Shown one piece after another: positions 768 to 47,764 of a stretch of 64,000 nucleotides of DNA. Positions within the stretch are counted from its first letter, which is position 1. Each line of letters opens with the position of its first letter. Position numbers and translations under genes: made by a program. The DNA is from an uncultured bacterium (GTDB lineage Bacteria > Cyanobacteriota > Vampirovibrionia > Gastranaerophilales > Gastranaerophilaceae), in NCBI GenBank assembly GCA_949286705.1, contig CASEDF010000001.1:1-64000 (forward strand). The letters are read 5' to 3'. Below the pieces are notes generated by a model, which was not told the origin of the DNA, made no database searches, and was given only the letters and a program-made list of their open reading frames with translations.

Positions 768-1859
768 ATGGGAAAGAAAAGAATAAGCATAATCGGCTCA
801 ACGGGTTCAATCGGAACTCAGACTCTGGAGGTTCTTGAAAAACTTCAGGACAAATTTGAAATAATTGCACTGGCAGGCGGACATAATAAGGAGCTTTTGG
901 ACGCGCAGGCAAAAAAATTCAAACCAAAATATACAGTTCTGGGCGAACAAGGTCTTGAAAAAATCTGTTCCGATAAAGAAAACGACATAATATTAGTTGC
1001 ATGTTCAGGCAAAATCGGATTACGCCCGACACTTACCGCAATAAAAAACGGCATAAATATAGCGCTTGCAAATAAAGAAACCCTTGTTATGGCGGGCGAT
1101 ATTGTGATGAGGGAAGCGAAAAACCACGGGGTAAAAATTATTCCGGTCGACAGCGAACACTGTGCAATCCACCAGTGCATAAAAGATATTTCTCAGGTGG
1201 ATAAATTAATTATTACGGCCTCCGGCGGGCCTTTTTTACACAAATCCGTTGATGATATGAAAAACGCAACAGTCAAAGAGGCACTTGCGCACCCCAAATG
1301 GCATATGGGTAAAAAAATAACTGTTGACAGCGCGACTTTGATGAACAAAGGACTGGAAATCATTGAGGCGCATCACCTTTTCGGATTTAATTATGATGAT
1401 ATAGAAGTTGTAATTCACCCGCAAAGCATTGTGCATTCCGCAATTGAATACAAAGACGGCAGCGTAATTGCCCAATTAGGACTGCCGAGTATGCATATCC
1501 CAATTCAATATGCCATATCTTATCCTGAAAGATTTAAAGGGATAAAGTCAAAAAGTTTCAGTTTTGCGGAAATTGCGCGGCTTGACTTTGAAAAACCTGA
1601 TTTTGAAAAATTCCCGTGCGTAAAACTTGCCTACAGAGCAGGCAAAACAGGCGGAACCATGACAACATGCCTTAATGCGGCAAATGAAGAAGCTGTTTTT
1701 GCATTTCTGGACGGAAAAATCAAGCTCTATAATATCTACGAAATAGTTGAAAAAATGATGTCAGAACACAAAGTTATCCAAAACCCTACAATAGACGAAA
1801 TCTTTGAAATCGACAAAGACATCCGCGAAAAAACAAAAGAATTTATTAAAACTCTATAA
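768..1859 (+). CDS. dxr: 1-deoxy-D-xylulose 5-phosphate reductoisomerase
   Basis: Cytosolic enzyme that rearranges and reduces DXP to 2-C-methyl-D-erythritol 4-phosphate with NADPH and a divalent metal, the committed step of the MEP isoprenoid pathway. The Rossmann motif GSTGSIGTQTLEVL is at residues 10-23, the metal-site segment VDSEHCAIHQ at about 127, and MNKGLEIIEAHHLFG at about 191, followed by HPQSIVHS. At 363 residues it is slightly short but complete. It converges on priA, with 6 bp of overlap. ispE and ispF elsewhere in the window belong to the same pathway. A TATAAT-like box sits about 15 bases before the start, so the leader is very short. Confidence 0.95.
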   Translation: MGKKRISIIGSTGSIGTQTLEVLEKLQDKFEIIALAGGHNKELLDAQAKKFKPKYTVLGEQGLEKICSDKENDIILVACSGKIGLRPTLTAIKNGINIALANKETLVMAGDIVMREAKNHGVKIIPVDSEHCAIHQCIKDISQVDKLIITASGGPFLHKSVDDMKNATVKEALAHPKWHMGKKITVDSATLMNKGLEIIEAHHLFGFNYDDIEVVIHPQSIVHSAIEYKDGSVIAQLGLPSMHIPIQYAISYPERFKGIKSKSFSFAEIARLDFEKPDFEKFPCVKLAYRAGKTGGTMTTCLNAANEEAVFAFLDGKIKLYNIYEIVEKMMSEHKVIQNPTIDEIFEIDKDIREKTKEFIKTL

Positions 1860-4484
1860 AATATCCAGCGGATCCACATCTATTGTGAGCTTAATATCTT
1901 TTGGCATTGTGATTTTGTTCAGAAAACTTGAAATAAATCTGTGACCTTTTTCGTCCATTTTGTTTTTAATAAGGATTTGGAAACGATACTGCCCGTTGAG
2001 CCGCTCGATTACACAGTTTGTGGGACCCAAAACCTCAATCCGCTCTGATATTCCGTATTTTTCAACCATTGTACAAAGTCTCAAGGCAATCTCCTGTGCT
2101 GATTTTTCCGCGCGGAAGTTGTTTTCACAAGCCAGAACAAGTCTTATAATCTGGCTGAAAGGCGGGTAATCAAATTCCTCACGGGCAATAATTTCTTTTT
2201 CAAAAAATTCACCGTAATTTTGGGATTTAGCACTTTCAAGCGCATAAAATTCAGGGTTATAAGTTTGGAAAAACACACGTCCCGCAAAATCTCCGCGTCC
2301 GGCACGCCCGGCCACCTGCGTCAAAAGCTGAAATCCGCGCTCTGATGCTCTGAAATCCGGCAGATTGAAGCTTGCATCAGCCGAAATAACCCCGACAAGC
2401 GTAACATTCGGGTTATCCAAACCTTTTGCAATCATCTGCGTGCCGACCAGAATATCTATATCTCCCTTTTGAAATCGCTCCAAAAGCCTTATGTGTTCGC
2501 CTTTTCTGACAAGAATGTCGCTGTCGATACGTTCAACTTTTTTATCAGGATAAAGCTCTTTGATGTACTGTTCAATCTTCTGGGTGCCTGTTCCGCTGTT
2601 TTTCAAAGCGTCAGAACCGCATTCGGGACAAAAATCAGGAAAGCTTTCACTGTGGTTGCAATAGTGACATTTCAAACGCTGTTCACGCGCGTGCCAGATC
2701 ATCGGAATAGCGCAATTAGGGCATTCAATTACATGCCCGCATGCCTGACACTGGGTAAACGTTGAAAACCCGCGGCGATTAATCAACAAAATCACCTGCT
2801 GATTATTCTCTAAAGTTTCATTAATCGCGACCTGCAAAGGTTTGGAAATCACATTTTTGTATGCCGCGCGGCCGTATTCCTGCATATTTATGACGGTAAC
2901 CGGCGGAACTTTTGCATCATTATATCTTTTTTTAAGCTCAAAAAGATTACCGGAATTCACTGCCCTGTAGTAAACCGAAATATCGGGCGTTGCAGATCCC
3001 AATAAAAGCGGACAGTTATGAAATTCGGCAAGTTTACGCGCAACAACACGCGCATCATATCTTGGCGCAGGATTTGTTTGCTTATAGGCGCCTTCGTGCT
3101 CCTCATCAATTATAATTAAGCCGATATTTTGCAATGGCGCAAAAACAGCCGAACGCGCACCCGCAAGTATTTTAATTTCATTTTTGTATAATTTTTGCCA
3201 AACATCATAACGTTCGCCGTCAGAAATGCTGCTGTGCCATATTGCAACGTCATCAGTGCCGAATTTTTTCGCCAGACGCTTGGTTAATTGTGATGCAAGT
3301 GCAATTTCCGGAACCAGAAACAAAACATTTTTACCTGCTTTGATTGTATCGTCAATTAATTTAAAATAAACTTCCGTTTTGCCGCTTGCCGTAACACCAT
3401 GAAGTAATATTGTTTTACCCCTCACCGGAATCAAAGATTCCGACTCTCCCACAAGGGGAGAGTAATCAGTTTCTGATAAAATTTTAGAGATTACGCCTTC
3501 AATATTTTCATAAATTTCATTATTCCAAAATCTTAAAACTTTAAAACCGTTATCTTCCAAAAACTTTTGTCTTACCTTGTCGCTTTCAAGCCCTGCAATA
3601 TCATTATGCTGCCCGCCATCAATTTCAATTACAAGTTTTTTCTCATAACATACAAAGTCGACTATATATTTACCAATAGCCTCTTGCCGCCTGAATTTAA
3701 GATTATTCAATTGCTTATCTTTCAGATAATACCACAATATCCTCTCTGCATTTGTCATCTTTTGACGTAATTCCTTGGAATACGCCAAAGCTTGCCTTGT
3801 ATAAAAATGTACGGCAGTTTTCCTCTCCCCTTGTGGGAGAGGGTTAGGGTGAGGGGTAATTTTATTTTTTATCCCTTCGTAGACTTTTTGCTGATCGGGT
3901 GAAAGTTCAAACAGCGGTTCTTTTTCCGTAATTTTTAATATATCAAGCGGGTTGCGGTATAATTCTTCCGATGTAATCTTTAAACACCCGAGTTCTTCCA
4001 GTTTTTTAATGGTATTACGCGTTGTCTTTGCCTGACGTTCGAACAAAATCAAAGGCATTTTGCCGGATTTTTGCAAAATTTCCAGAACCTCTTTTTGCCT
4101 CTTTGTCGCCCCGTCAAACTGTACAAATTCAACCGCCTGTTCGGTTTTTGAAGCTTTTTCAATTAATTTCAAAGGAATTGCCGCGTTCAAAACAGTAACC
4201 AGATCACAGCAGTAGTAATTCGCAACCCATTCAAGTAATTTTAAATAATCAATAGAAAAAAGCGGCTTTTCATCAAGAATTTTGCTTATTTTTTTTACCT
4301 TAAAATCACCCGGCAGATAATCCGAAAACCCCACACAAAAAGCATTAATAAGCCCCTGACGCCCGAAAGGCACCAGAATCGCCTGACCGATTTGAATTTT
4401 GTCCTTCATCTCATCAGGGATTGAATAACTGAAAGTTTTTACCCCCAGCCCTTTTATATTCACAAGAGCAAGAGCGTATTTCAT
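1854..4484 (-). CDS. priA: Primosomal helicase PriA with an inserted DUF559/Vsr-like endonuclease domain
   Basis: 3'-5' DNA helicase that restarts collapsed forks. The N-terminal DNA-binding domain is followed by a Walker A segment, LLHGVTASGKTE (about 360-371), DEEH, the zinc-binding cysteine block (CQACGHVIECPNC, then CHYC, then CPEC) and the C-terminal helicase motifs. Residues about 209-357 are foreign to PriA: a DUF559-type domain (KELRQKMTNAERILWYYLK, then FRRQEAIGKYIVDFVC, then LVIEIDGGQH) flanked by repeat-encoded peptides (HPNPLPQGER and SPLVGESES). Removing about 149 residues gives about 727, the normal PriA length. The frame is intact throughout. The gene starts 1 base inside the upstream PC4-like gene (TAATG), so the two form an operon. 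Confidence 0.93.
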   Translation of the reverse strand: MKYALALVNIKGLGVKTFSYSIPDEMKDKIQIGQAILVPFGRQGLINAFCVGFSDYLPGDFKVKKISKILDEKPLFSIDYLKLLEWVANYYCCDLVTVLNAAIPLKLIEKASKTEQAVEFVQFDGATKRQKEVLEILQKSGKMPLILFERQAKTTRNTIKKLEELGCLKITSEELYRNPLDILKITEKEPLFELSPDQQKVYEGIKNKITPHPNPLPQGERKTAVHFYTRQALAYSKELRQKMTNAERILWYYLKDKQLNNLKFRRQEAIGKYIVDFVCYEKKLVIEIDGGQHNDIAGLESDKVRQKFLEDNGFKVLRFWNNEIYENIEGVISKILSETDYSPLVGESESLIPVRGKTILLHGVTASGKTEVYFKLIDDTIKAGKNVLFLVPEIALASQLTKRLAKKFGTDDVAIWHSSISDGERYDVWQKLYKNEIKILAGARSAVFAPLQNIGLIIIDEEHEGAYKQTNPAPRYDARVVARKLAEFHNCPLLLGSATPDISVYYRAVNSGNLFELKKRYNDAKVPPVTVINMQEYGRAAYKNVISKPLQVAINETLENNQQVILLINRRGFSTFTQCQACGHVIECPNCAIPMIWHAREQRLKCHYCNHSESFPDFCPECGSDALKNSGTGTQKIEQYIKELYPDKKVERIDSDILVRKGEHIRLLERFQKGDIDILVGTQMIAKGLDNPNVTLVGVISADASFNLPDFRASERGFQLLTQVAGRAGRGDFAGRVFFQTYNPEFYALESAKSQNYGEFFEKEIIAREEFDYPPFSQIIRLVLACENNFRAEKSAQEIALRLCTMVEKYGISERIEVLGPTNCVIERLNGQYRFQILIKNKMDEKGHRFISSFLNKITMPKDIKLTIDVDPLDIL
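3416..3865 (-). mobile_element. Repeat-bounded DUF559 endonuclease element inside priA
   Basis: The inserted endonuclease segment is bounded by perfect 19-bp inverted repeats: CTCTCCCACAAGGGGAGAG at 3444-3462 and its exact reverse complement at 3823-3841. Outside each is a further inverted ACCCCTCACC. The interior (about 3470-3820) codes for a Vsr/DUF559 fold in the same frame as priA. The domain keeps FRRQ, the IVDFVC strand and EIDGGQH, the expected PD-(D/E)XK-like core of this family. DUF559 proteins are normally free-standing, about 110-130 residues; here one sits as a domain insert. That the repeat-plus-endonuclease unit is mobile is inference. Confidence 0.7.
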
Positions 4485-15633: not shown

Positions 15634-15770
15634 AATTACCTCTCTTCTTAACTTACGATAAACTAATTATATTATAAATTCCCTGCCGGCTCAATATTTT
15701 AATATTATCTTAATCTCTTGCACTTGGAGCTTAAATTTGATATAATAATACCACAATGGAGGTTAAACAA

Positions 15771-16886
15771 ATGAACACAAATACGCACTATGACTACTTT
15801 TCACTCAGGGGGGGGGGCAGTAGCTTAACCTCCGCAGACAACTTTTTTATCTGTCATGCTGAACTCGTTTCAGCATCTTGCAATCGGGACAATGTAAAAG
15901 CCCCTCTCCGGTCACTACGTGACACCCTCTCCCCTAGGGGGCGAGGGAAATTAATCTGTCATCCTGAGGTGCCGATGGCACAACAACACATTAGGGCTTT
16001 TTGGAATTTTACTGGTCATCCTAAGGCTTTAGCCGAAGGATCGCAAAAAGTTAATGAGATGCTGAAACAAGTTCAGCATGACAGAAATACCTTCCCTCGC
16101 CCCTTGGGGAGAGGGATTAAGGGAGAGGGGCAAGGCTGTGACAAAACCGTGAGCAAAGCTCACAGAAAATTCTTAGTGCCTTACTGTCTTAGTAACTTAG
16201 TATCTTCTAAGAAAGCCGCCTTTACCTTAGCCGAGGTGCTTATCACCCTCGGCATCATCGGCATTGTTGCCGCTATGACTATTCCGACACTCATATCAAA
16301 ATTCCAGGAAAAATCTCTGGAGTCTCAATTTAAAAAAACATATTCATTGTTAAATCAAGCGCTGCAGCTTACTAATTATGAAAACGGAGTTGAATACAAA
16401 TGTTATTCCAAAACCACAGATTTTGAAAATTCCGATTATTATGAATATTCACAATGCAAAGAGTTTCAAGAAGCCTTTTTTAAAAATTTAAAGTATTTAA
16501 AATATGATGTTGTTAATGAAACGACTGTTGACTATAAAACAAAAGAAGAAGTTCTTGCAGAGGGCGGCGGGATAACAAATCCGGCTTGTTCATTCAAATA
16601 CTTAGTAGCAAATACATACAAATATTATTTACCTGACGGAAGTATTGTATATGCAAATCCTAGAAATAGTGATACTGGCGGTATCTTTATGATTGTTGAC
16701 ATAACCGGCGATAAAGGGCCTAACAAGTGGGGATATGATGTTTTTCAACTATCTCCGACTAAAAGAAAAAACGGTTCTGTGAGAATAAATGAAGCTATTT
16801 GTGCAATATGGGAAAAAGGCGGCAAAAGAACACAAAATATCCTCAATAATATTGATGAAGTAAGTGATGACTGGTTTGCAGATTAA
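15771..16886 (+). CDS. Type IV pilin-like protein with repeat-built N-terminal extension and poly-G switch (ON)
   Basis: The pilin signature KKAAFTLAEVLITLGIIGIV is at about residues 145-164, and the C-terminal VDITGDKGPNKWGYDVF motif is shared with other pilins here. The ATG at 15771 follows GGAGG; the ATG at 15756 overlaps that site. A run of 10 G (15808-15817) lies 12 codons in and keeps the frame open. With 9 G the frame would hit TAA within a few codons. Residues 20-140 are translated repeats (CHAELVSAS, MLKQVQHD, LSPRGRGK). Normal prepilin leaders are much shorter. Either the extension is real and removed, or the true start is internal. Confidence 0.75.
   Translation: MNTNTHYDYFSLRGGGSSLTSADNFFICHAELVSASCNRDNVKAPLRSLRDTLSPRGRGKLICHPEVPMAQQHIRAFWNFTGHPKALAEGSQKVNEMLKQVQHDRNTFPRPLGRGIKGEGQGCDKTVSKAHRKFLVPYCLSNLVSSKKAAFTLAEVLITLGIIGIVAAMTIPTLISKFQEKSLESQFKKTYSLLNQALQLTNYENGVEYKCYSKTTDFENSDYYEYSQCKEFQEAFFKNLKYLKYDVVNETTVDYKTKEEVLAEGGGITNPACSFKYLVANTYKYYLPDGSIVYANPRNSDTGGIFMIVDITGDKGPNKWGYDVFQLSPTKRKNGSVRINEAICAIWEKGGKRTQNILNNIDEVSDDWFAD
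15808..15817 (+). repeat. Poly-G tract (10 G), candidate phase-variation switch
   Basis: Ten consecutive G in an AT-rich genome, located 12 codons after the start of the pilin-like gene. Frame check: 10 G joins the ATG to the pilin frame; loss of one G leads to TAA after a few codons. It parallels the 9-G tract at 42232-42240. Confidence 0.75.
15845..16150. repeat. Nested palindromic repeats inside a pilin coding region
   Basis: An inverted pair CTGTCATGCTGAACTCGTTT (about 15849) and its near reverse complement (about 16058-16085) frames the block. Between and after are CCCTCTCC/GGGGAGAGGG units (15900-15950 and 16090-16130) and GTCATCCT units (15958 and 16016). The unit at 15900-15950 is the same family, in opposite orientation, as the one at 36930-36975. 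All are read through in the pilin frame. Confidence 0.7.
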
Positions 16887-45851: not shown

Positions 45852-45938
45852 ATTCCCTCATTAATTATAACACCATTAAAACTAGCAGAGAAATTTTTTT
45901 AAAACATTTACCTGTGTGTGGTATTATTAATTAGTAAT

Positions 45939-46775
45939 ATGAACTACTACGAAAGAGCAAAATTTTTCAGAACCAAAAAACGACTCGGACAAAATTTTCT
46001 GATAAACGGCGAAATTATTCGGGAAATAATTGACAATGCCAAAATCTCGCCTGAAGACACAATTGTTGAAATAGGTCCCGGCGTCGGATTTGTAACCGAA
46101 CAGCTTGTAAAATACGCCAAGCAGGTCATTGCAATTGAGCTGGATGAAGAAGCAATAAAGGAACTTGAAAAATTAAATGCACCTAATCTTAAAATTATCC
46201 ACGCCGATATTTTAAAAACCGATTTATCGACACTATGCGACGGTAAAATCAAAGTTGTTGCAAATATTCCATACTACATAACAAGCCCGATAATTGCACA
46301 TTTGCTGGGCGAAGTTGATGATTTGAATAACAAAAACCGTAACAAAATTACCGAGATAATTTTGATGGTTCAAGAGGAAGTTGCAAGAAGAATGGTTGCG
46401 GATGAAAATTCTCCCGCAAAACAATACGGACTTTTGACAATACTTTCACAATTCTGGGCAGATGTTGAAATATTTAAACTTGTCGGCAGAAAATCTTTTT
46501 ATCCGGCGCCAAAAGTGAATTCCGCACTGGTAAAACTTGTGGTAAAAAGTAAACCAAAACTTGAGTTATCCGACTACAGCCATTTCAGAAAAACGGTTAA
46601 AGCCGCATTTTCCCAAAGACGCAAAAATATTAAAAATTGTCTTTTAAACGGCGGATTTACCCGTGATGCAATAATAAACGCTCTTTCATCGCTTGGGATT
46701 GATGAAAACACACGAGGAGAAAAGCTTTCAATAGAAACGTTCGGAAAATTGTCGGAGGCGCTTCTAAAAAAATAA
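45939..46775 (+). CDS. rsmA: 16S rRNA dimethyladenosine transferase
   Basis: KsgA/RsmA methylates two adjacent adenosines near the 3' end of 16S rRNA late in 30S assembly. The SAM-binding motif is TIVEIGPGVGFVTEQL (about 46-61), with KRLGQNFLINGEIIREI before it; VANIPYYITSPI (about 110) carries the N-I-P-Y-Y catalytic motif, and a C-terminal domain FRKTVKAAFSQRRKNIKNCL follows. The length is 278. A GTG 21 bases upstream is a possible alternative start; neither has a clear SD. The ispE gene lies after a palindromic repeat. Confidence 0.94.
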   Translation: MNYYERAKFFRTKKRLGQNFLINGEIIREIIDNAKISPEDTIVEIGPGVGFVTEQLVKYAKQVIAIELDEEAIKELEKLNAPNLKIIHADILKTDLSTLCDGKIKVVANIPYYITSPIIAHLLGEVDDLNNKNRNKITEIILMVQEEVARRMVADENSPAKQYGLLTILSQFWADVEIFKLVGRKSFYPAPKVNSALVKLVVKSKPKLELSDYSHFRKTVKAAFSQRRKNIKNCLLNGGFTRDAIINALSSLGIDENTRGEKLSIETFGKLSEALLKK

Positions 46776-46781
46776 AATACC

Positions 46782-46826
46782 CTCCCTTGAGGGGAGGGTG
46801 GAAATCTACGATTTCCGGGTGGGTGA
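46782..46826 (+). repeat. Palindromic repeat between rsmA and ispE
   Basis: CCCTCCCTTGAGGGGAGGGT, then GGAAATCTACGATTTCC, then GGGTGGGTG. Two hairpins of the CCCTCCC/GGGAGGG family immediately before the ispE start; the element abuts the DUF559-like N-terminus of ispE. Confidence 0.7.
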
Positions 46827-46828
46827 TT

Positions 46829-47764
46829 ATGAATAATAAAAAATATCCAAAAATTTCTATATCAAATGCAAAAAACTTAAGAACTAATGCAGCAACTCCT
46901 GAAAAAATATTATGGACATATCTCAGGAAAAGCAGTGAAAATAGGAATATTAAAATTCAATGTCCCGCCAAAATAAATTTGACGCTCAAAGTTACCGGAA
47001 AACGCGAGGACGGTTATCATAACATTGACAGCATAATGCAGACAATCAGCCTGTTTGATTATCTGACAATTTCAATTGAAAAAAGCGATAAAATCGAAAT
47101 AACTCTAAACGGCACAAGCGACGAAATTCCGTATAACGAAAAAAATCTTGTACATAAAGCATGCCTGTTATTTTTAGAAAAGACAAAACTTCCGGCGCAT
47201 AGGATTAGTGTTTTCATAGAAAAAAATATCCCCGTTGCAGCAGGTCTTGCAGGCGGAAGTACGGATGCTTCAGGGATGCTGTACGGATTAAACAAATTAT
47301 TTGACGAACCTTTAAGCCGTGAAGGATTACACGGGCTTTGCGCAAAACTCGGCTCAGACTTGAATTTATGCCTTGAAGGCGGCAGACAAAAAACCTCCGG
47401 CAGAGGTGAAATTTTGGAACCGCTGGAATTTGAAGAATTTGAAGTTTCGCTTATAAAGCCTGAAAATTTAGGTATAAGCGCAAAGGAAGCATACACAAAA
47501 TTTTCGGAAAAAATAGCTAACTACCCTACCCTTGCAGTGGAAGGGCCAGGGTGGGGGGCAAGAGAGGCTTACCCCAACGACCTTGAATGGGCTGTAATTG
47601 ATGATTACAAAGAATTACAAGAGATTAAAAAACTTTATCCTAAATCCGTTATGTCAGGCTCCGGCTCAACTTATTTCGCAATAGATACTGAATTTAAACC
47701 TCAAAAAGGTTTTTGGATAAAAAATAACTTGAAATCAATACCATACGGTGTAAAAGAAGTATAA
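46829..47764 (+). CDS. ispE: 4-diphosphocytidyl-2-C-methyl-D-erythritol kinase, with DUF559 relic and repeat insert
   Basis: GHMP kinase of the MEP pathway: substrate loop CPAKINLTLKVTGKREDGYH (about 44-63), ATP loop PVAAGLAGGSTDASG (about 137-151), C-terminal GSGSTYFA. Two oddities. Residues 12-36 (SNAKNLRTNAATPEKILWTY) are not part of IspE but look like the start of a DUF559 endonuclease (compare KELRQKMTNAERILWYYLK in PriA). Residues about 231-247 (YPTLAVEGPGWGAREAYP) are encoded by a GC-rich repeat (47519-47567) placed in frame in a loop before NDLE. Total 311, about 25-30 above usual. The ATG at 46829 gives this frame; no better start is seen. Confidence 0.88.
   Translation: MNNKKYPKISISNAKNLRTNAATPEKILWTYLRKSSENRNIKIQCPAKINLTLKVTGKREDGYHNIDSIMQTISLFDYLTISIEKSDKIEITLNGTSDEIPYNEKNLVHKACLLFLEKTKLPAHRISVFIEKNIPVAAGLAGGSTDASGMLYGLNKLFDEPLSREGLHGLCAKLGSDLNLCLEGGRQKTSGRGEILEPLEFEEFEVSLIKPENLGISAKEAYTKFSEKIANYPTLAVEGPGWGAREAYPNDLEWAVIDDYKELQEIKKLYPKSVMSGSGSTYFAIDTEFKPQKGFWIKNNLKSIPYGVKEV

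Follow-up and report, generated by a model that had tools for sequence, protein, structure and literature searches.

Homing endonucleases are classically found in introns, in inteins or as free-standing genes, and for the nucleases of introns and inteins a homing cycle with a decay phase has been described (PMC3229294). Among palindromic repeats, the movement of most REP families is attributed to RAYT (HuH) transposases (PMC3116915), intragenic REPs are known from many genomes (PMC3733652), and in-frame palindromes are known in Rickettsia (PMC10969869), whose palindromic elements (RPEs) measure about 150 bp and have no nuclease gene described. The domain family DUF559 (PF04480; NCBIfam PRK09767; structure 3HRL) is recorded as being of unknown function. 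In the open literature, outside which lie subscription papers and most preprints so that priority is not certain, we found no account of a nuclease gene lying in frame between such repeats, and the titles and abstracts of open papers that name DUF559 mention neither mobility nor in-frame residence.

Here we analyse a 64,000-nucleotide stretch of DNA from an uncultured bacterium of the Gastranaerophilaceae, referred to below as the window. The bacterium lives in the gut, and ispE encodes an essential enzyme of isoprenoid synthesis. The start of its ispE gene is, in our judgement, probably a dead and internally deleted element of the homing type, flanked by REP-like repeats and built around a Vsr-like PD-(D/E)XK nuclease of the DUF559 family, which resides in the gene in frame and without splicing.

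The start of ispE and its alleles

All features of this locus lie on the forward strand. Downstream of ksgA (45918..46775) lies the left terminal inverted repeat of the element (46778..46825), which is REP-like and consists of two hairpins followed by GGGTGGGTG. Hairpin 1 (46779..46799), recognized from the sequence and the predicted RNA fold, contains the CCCTCCC/GGGAGGG palindrome that the original prediction had placed just ahead of a relic; we located this palindrome, CCCTCCCTTGAGGGGAGGG, at 46780-46798, and shuffled sequences give a chance expectation of none. Hairpin 2 (GGAAATCTACGATTTCC, 46800..46816) is predicted by RNA folding, in which the 58-nt repeat stretch gives z = -2.7 and a putative Shine-Dalgarno-like GGGTGGGTGATT together with the ATG (46817..46831) is left unpaired. 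Judged from this fold and from comparison with the related genome G013, GGGTGGGTGATT and the ATG appear to be borne by the element and to form the present start of ispE.

The IspE reading frame runs from the ATG at 46829 to 47764. Its first 35 residues (46829..46933) are the N-terminus of a DUF559 gene fused to IspE. They are followed by the junction of an in-frame internal deletion (46934..46945) and, as delimited by comparison with other IspEs, by IspE proper (46946..47764), which begins at about residue 40-41, where it had been predicted to begin. When the N-terminal 46 amino acids alone are searched, DUF559 profile positions 5-28 match residues 12-35 (46862-46933) with E = 0.0049 and 17.1 bits, short of the Pfam gathering cut-off of 20.6 bits; the whole IspE protein gives E = 0.1, also below that score. 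Because these matches fall short, the profile by itself is suggestive, and we used the comparison of alleles instead. By its sequence, the relic is best classed as a homologous DUF559 fragment and not as a member of the domain.

IspE was sought in 59 relatives, mostly draft assemblies, and in public genomes, the close ones among which are Gastranaerophilales and other Melainabacteria. Eight relatives (G002, G005, G006, G007, G009, G011, G012 and G014) have an empty ksgA-ispE junction, at which the ispE start lies close to where ksgA ends; G011 uses a GTG in GTGAAGCAAATTAA that overlaps the ksgA stop. An intact element, in which hairpin repeats flank a complete in-frame DUF559 on both sides, occupies the junction in G013, G035, G074 and genome G139 (locus L040). 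In G013, which belongs to the window's genus, a left hairpin repeat, an ATG and N-terminus as in the window, a full DUF559, an inverted right repeat and IspE follow one another in one frame. The left repeat TACCCTCCCTTGAGGGGAGGGTGGAAATCTACGATTTCCGGGTGGGTG recurs inverted at the right end of the G013 element with an 86% match to the left repeat of the window, and L040 also has an inverted right-end copy. The deleted allele is found, with an identical junction, in the window's genome (G000), G001 and G010. The IspE core lies 405 nt from the ATG in G013 versus 117 nt in the window, both multiples of 3. At its other edge, the insertion changed the 3' end of ksgA, which reads ...SEALLKK (stop) in place of ...SEALREAN (stop).

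Taken together, the intact G013 allele, the shared in-frame deletion and the empty sites indicate that the element supplied a new start codon and leader to ispE. Comparison of alleles confirms the first 40 residues of IspE as the leftover front of a predicted nuclease gene flanked by hairpin repeats. It shows that the element is present at this junction in some lineages only, where its own leader, ATG and open frame have replaced the old ispE start, and that in the window's lineage an in-frame deletion removed the catalytic body and the right repeat and kept the new start. These intact, empty and deleted alleles bear out the original prediction of a second element, made of a repeat and an endonuclease, whose ATG and N-terminus passed to ispE as it decayed, and the DUF559 helices that it recognized lie within a stretch nearly identical in the intact G013 allele. 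The 40 residues are absent from every empty-site IspE examined; all of these begin at the core, which rules out an old extension of IspE. The original prediction had not recognized that the deletion preserves the reading frame and is common to three genomes, that a second insertion struck IspE, or that members of the element family commonly reside in frame. A second type of nuclease is seen at the ksgA-ispE junction of another related genome (L039:2590-3789), where a GIY-YIG nuclease (Pfam E 3e-13) and a repeat-like peptide are fused in frame to the IspE N-terminus.

Over 46776-46933 the window and G013 are identical at 153 of 155 bases (about 156 bp surviving, 99%), in keeping with an intact DUF559 gene at this position as the ancestor of the relic, versus 1107 of 1403 (79%) in the flanking ksgA and ispE sequences (Fisher p = 1.5e-12). 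The edges of this tract are sharp: on either side it stops no more than tens of bases from the element, and most 60-base steps of the flanks are 65-85% identical. A DNA search of the 59 relatives found the full relic stretch only in G001, G010 and G013, at ksgA-ispE; its one additional match was the inverted right end in G013. Because the stretch is single-copy per genome, including the window's own, near identity points to transfer to the same site, and copying within a genome is ruled out as its cause. In a tree of ksgA and ispE the window's genome is sister to G011, whose site is empty. This placement and the near identity suggest that the element recently reached the same site in separate lineages or that there was an exchange of alleles; in neither case is it an old part of IspE. 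As expected of a homing element, the same site is occupied in some relatives and empty in others, with transfer between species.

Ordinary homologous recombination might instead have spread the N-terminal element of ispE between species, with the nuclease playing no part now, and between-species recombination could equally shift an allele of 300-400 bp. Three genomes share the relic and have no nuclease in it, and the empty allele of G011, which lies inside the clade with relics, means that the junction was exchanged or lost, which counts for this explanation. However, recombination usually brings flanking sequence along, and the G013 tract ends with the element. We regard exchange by recombination as unlikely and favour a homing-type element.

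In-frame residence in IspE, PriA and other hosts

The second site in IspE lies between ...EAYTKFSEKI and NDLEWAVIDDYK, where a full in-frame DUF559 (profile E = 2.4e-45) splits the protein in seven genomes of the window's genus (G002, G003, G009, G010, G011, G013 and G014). The window has a 40-nt in-frame scar at this point (47520..47559, forward strand) that looks like the left end of an element joined to the right end; G010, which has the complete element there, is longer by 417 nt, or 139 codons. The copies at this site represent at least two lineages in the window's genus and a third in another genus; further genomes of the family (G069, G081 and G178) have a different lineage at this loop, and the G003 copy again belongs to a lineage of its own. 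Both IspE sites are occupied by DUF559 in G013, where a single IspE frame of 577 codons (L118, G013:C3:93698-95390) contains two complete DUF559 domains.

The original prediction counted the IspE copy as a second relic beside one in PriA; the description fits the former and fails for the latter, in which the domain is intact. The window's priA (1854..4484, reverse strand) contains a DUF559 domain (3471..3791, reverse strand; E = 1.5e-40 and 3.7e-39 in profile searches) in frame immediately upstream of the Walker A motif, directly preceding GVTASGKTEVY, and the terminal inverted repeat arms of this element (3444..3465 and 3820..3841, reverse strand; 22 nt each) are 95% complementary. The insertion is common to the window, G002 and G015, and is absent from the PriA proteins of G009, G010 and G011, which are 98% identical to the window's over the part searched. 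Fifteen PriA insertions at this place, spread across genera, form one group (support 88/89). Because the PriA copies are one clade that diverges like its host in the window's genus, most of the pattern there can be accounted for by vertical inheritance and loss.

The 59 relatives and the window's genome contain 37 full-length DUF559 domains, 18 of them embedded in frame in other proteins, and a DUF559 domain occurs in 106 of 286 genomes order-wide. Fixed in-frame sites in the family lie in PriA, IspE, PrmA (a PrmA-like methyltransferase), HydF (a HydF-like GTPase), HydE (a HydE-like radical SAM enzyme, at its C-terminus) and an M14 peptidase, and UvrD-type helicases are further hosts; some of the names, for hosts with no Pfam match, were assigned by reading the sequence. 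DUF559 sequences group by insertion site, with 18 changes versus 46.5 when shuffled (0 of 200 shuffles as low). Embedded copies have a frame that continues uninterrupted across both repeats and on into the host, the exception being the C-terminal HydE copies, which end there; nearly all stand-alone copies hit a stop within about 20 codons past the domain. In a set of 76 copies, picked to include large frames so that its proportions are not a census, every copy keeps the catalytic D of YIxDF and the E and D of IELDG, and none has a stop. Open frames also run through the repeats in unrelated genes, as in RPE-like in-frame palindromes, and are predicted to be translated. These comparisons show that the same sites in PriA, IspE and other hosts recurrently contain complete copies, in frame and free of stops, with their hairpin ends as predicted linkers.

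Beyond the order, DUF559 is found in frame in restriction enzymes of other Cyanobacteriota (L227, L228, L229 and L230; genomes G484, G354, G298 and G331). These are Type ISP, Eco57I and MmeI enzymes of oxygenic Cyanobacteriota, with hairpin-like, repeat-derived peptides at both DUF559 edges. Weak DUF559 matches in frames of 1000-1100 amino acids (such as C1:251100) seem to represent another protein, one that nearly all relatives have, and were excluded, and PADLOC matches, which were weak, partial and to larger defence proteins, were set aside. Two DUF559 copies in G150 (L226, G150:C6:62050, and G150:C1:35029) have one internal TGA each and are probably decaying stand-alone genes. The DUF559 frame of L200 (G100:C2:120530) has direct repeats on either side (SDVPQFNNRASSNNSKQTPTTNNEQQIPSPLIG), possibly a duplication around an insertion.

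Repeat ends, fold and mobility

The terminal inverted repeats exceed all of 100 shuffles in 68 of 74 copies. Within an element the two ends are alike, and they do not match those of other elements; at the mid-IspE site they co-vary, with CAAGCCC at both ends in G009 versus CTAACCC at both in G010 and G011. One version of the REP-like unit, GGGAGAGGGN{0,25}GGGTGAGG, reaches as many as 58 copies in a genome and is absent from the reversed control; hairpin-rich genomes include G003 and G034. It is present in 17 of 18 genomes with a full-length DUF559 versus 6 of 41 without one (Fisher p = 5.7e-9, the related genomes not being independent). In G013, the dispersed unit is the same unit that flanks the stand-alone DUF559. 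Inspection of ksgA-ispE by eye for a target-site duplication was ambiguous and established no clean duplication or shared target sequence. Elsewhere in the window, a pilin-like ORF (15756-16886) has its N_methyl signal at residue 151; the 150 residues upstream read like stacked interspersed repeats (CHAELVSAS, KQVQHD, PRPLGRGIKGEGQG), and the true start is probably much further in.

The hairpin unit could also be moved in trans by another recombinase or transposase, as RAYT enzymes are thought to do for most REP families, with DUF559 as cargo or as a shaper of ends. Hairpin units are indeed dispersed without DUF559 in several genomes. However, the unit follows the presence of DUF559 genome by genome, the two ends of each element match each other rather than other elements, and the catalytic residues are kept universally. 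We consider this passenger role for DUF559 distinctly improbable, and a homing-type nuclease remains our preferred reading.

AlphaFold leaves the IspE fold of G010 intact and models its DUF559 as a distinct domain that emerges between two helices, joined by disordered linkers that correspond to the translated repeats; pLDDT is mostly 95-99 in IspE, about 80-93 in DUF559 and 41-51 in the linkers. In a Foldseek search, the DUF559 model best matched 3HRL (E 1e-7) and second the homing endonuclease I-Bth0305I (3R3P; E 1e-4, TM (target) 0.73), with Vsr lower, which places it among homing-family folds. No intein domain was found in the PriA or IspE fusions and no Rfam intron family matched, ruling out intron or intein identity. 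Estimates of dN/dS are about 0.04-0.25 in nearly all embedded pairs (0.48 in one pair with six differences) and show purifying selection on the embedded copies. This selection, together with a PriA clade that is long-lived over many genera, would suit a domestication in which the fused DUF559 domains are useful, by regulating or targeting the host enzyme, and IspE has kept its N-terminal helices as an extension with a function. By contrast, the hosts are unrelated (an isoprenoid kinase, a helicase, a peptidase and a methyltransferase), presence is patchy beside empty alleles whose host proteins are 98% identical, the catalytic body has been deleted twice in the window's IspE, and the relic helices are modelled with low confidence (pLDDT 51-74), making domestication highly improbable. 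Chance resemblance or an assembly chimera at the ispE start, which would agree with a profile match below the Pfam cut-off, is rejected with near certainty by the same relic in three separate assemblies, its near-identical intact form in a fourth, and the full fusions in L040/G139, G035 and G074.

For the preferred homing-type element, we infer a nuclease-driven step in which the enzyme would cleave either the allele that lacks the element or the hairpin units, after which repair would copy the element in. This would be homing without an intron or intein; mobilisation through the hairpins is an alternative step. Translation of ispE would then start from the element's own GGGTGGGTGATT-ATG. The host protein may tolerate an additional DUF559 domain because the domain occupies a loop position on flexible linkers. 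Once a site is fixed in the population, the nuclease would decay by in-frame deletion, as may have happened twice in the window's ispE; by analogy, these two deletions fit the decay phase of the homing cycle.

Comparison with described systems

These observations point to nuclease elements that settle repeatedly in essential genes as a little-described form of selfish DNA carried inside working proteins. Such DNA can reside unspliced in essential enzymes and, as it decays, provide host genes with new start codons and N-termini. The widely distributed DUF559 gains a concrete and testable role, that of a homing-type nuclease paired with REP-like repeats, and since close relatives carry empty, intact and decayed alleles of one site, the homing cycle can be tested directly, as can the origin of REP-like repeats. 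With about even confidence, we would place the elements in a distinct class: REP-hairpin-bounded DUF559 nucleases of the homing type that live in frame and unspliced in essential proteins, use their hairpin ends as linkers, and invade, decay in frame and re-invade the same sites across Cyanobacteriota, in Gastranaerophilales and oxygenic relatives.

By profile and fold, the element nuclease is a full member of DUF559, to which the element would add mobility and in-frame residence. With the Vsr-like (EDxHD) homing endonucleases, such as I-Bth0305I, it shares a fixed site, a patchy distribution with empty and occupied alleles, and decay. Unlike the classic homing nucleases, it involves no splicing, and the mature host protein is predicted to retain the nuclease. 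Inteins with homing endonucleases likewise place a nuclease domain in frame inside an essential protein; they have a splicing domain, whereas the element has none and its linkers are translated hairpin repeats. The RPEs and intragenic REPs or MITEs resemble it as palindromic repeats that lie in frame in unrelated genes and are translated, and the element differs from RPEs in carrying a complete nuclease and recurring at the same sites. Like the REP/REPIN-RAYT systems (REPtrons), it has a nuclease gene flanked on each side by a REP-like hairpin, the two in inverted orientation, and hairpins that match them are scattered through the genome; the REPtron enzyme is an HuH tyrosine transposase, whereas that of the element is a PD-(D/E)XK/Vsr-like DUF559 nuclease, and the unit often runs in frame through a host gene.
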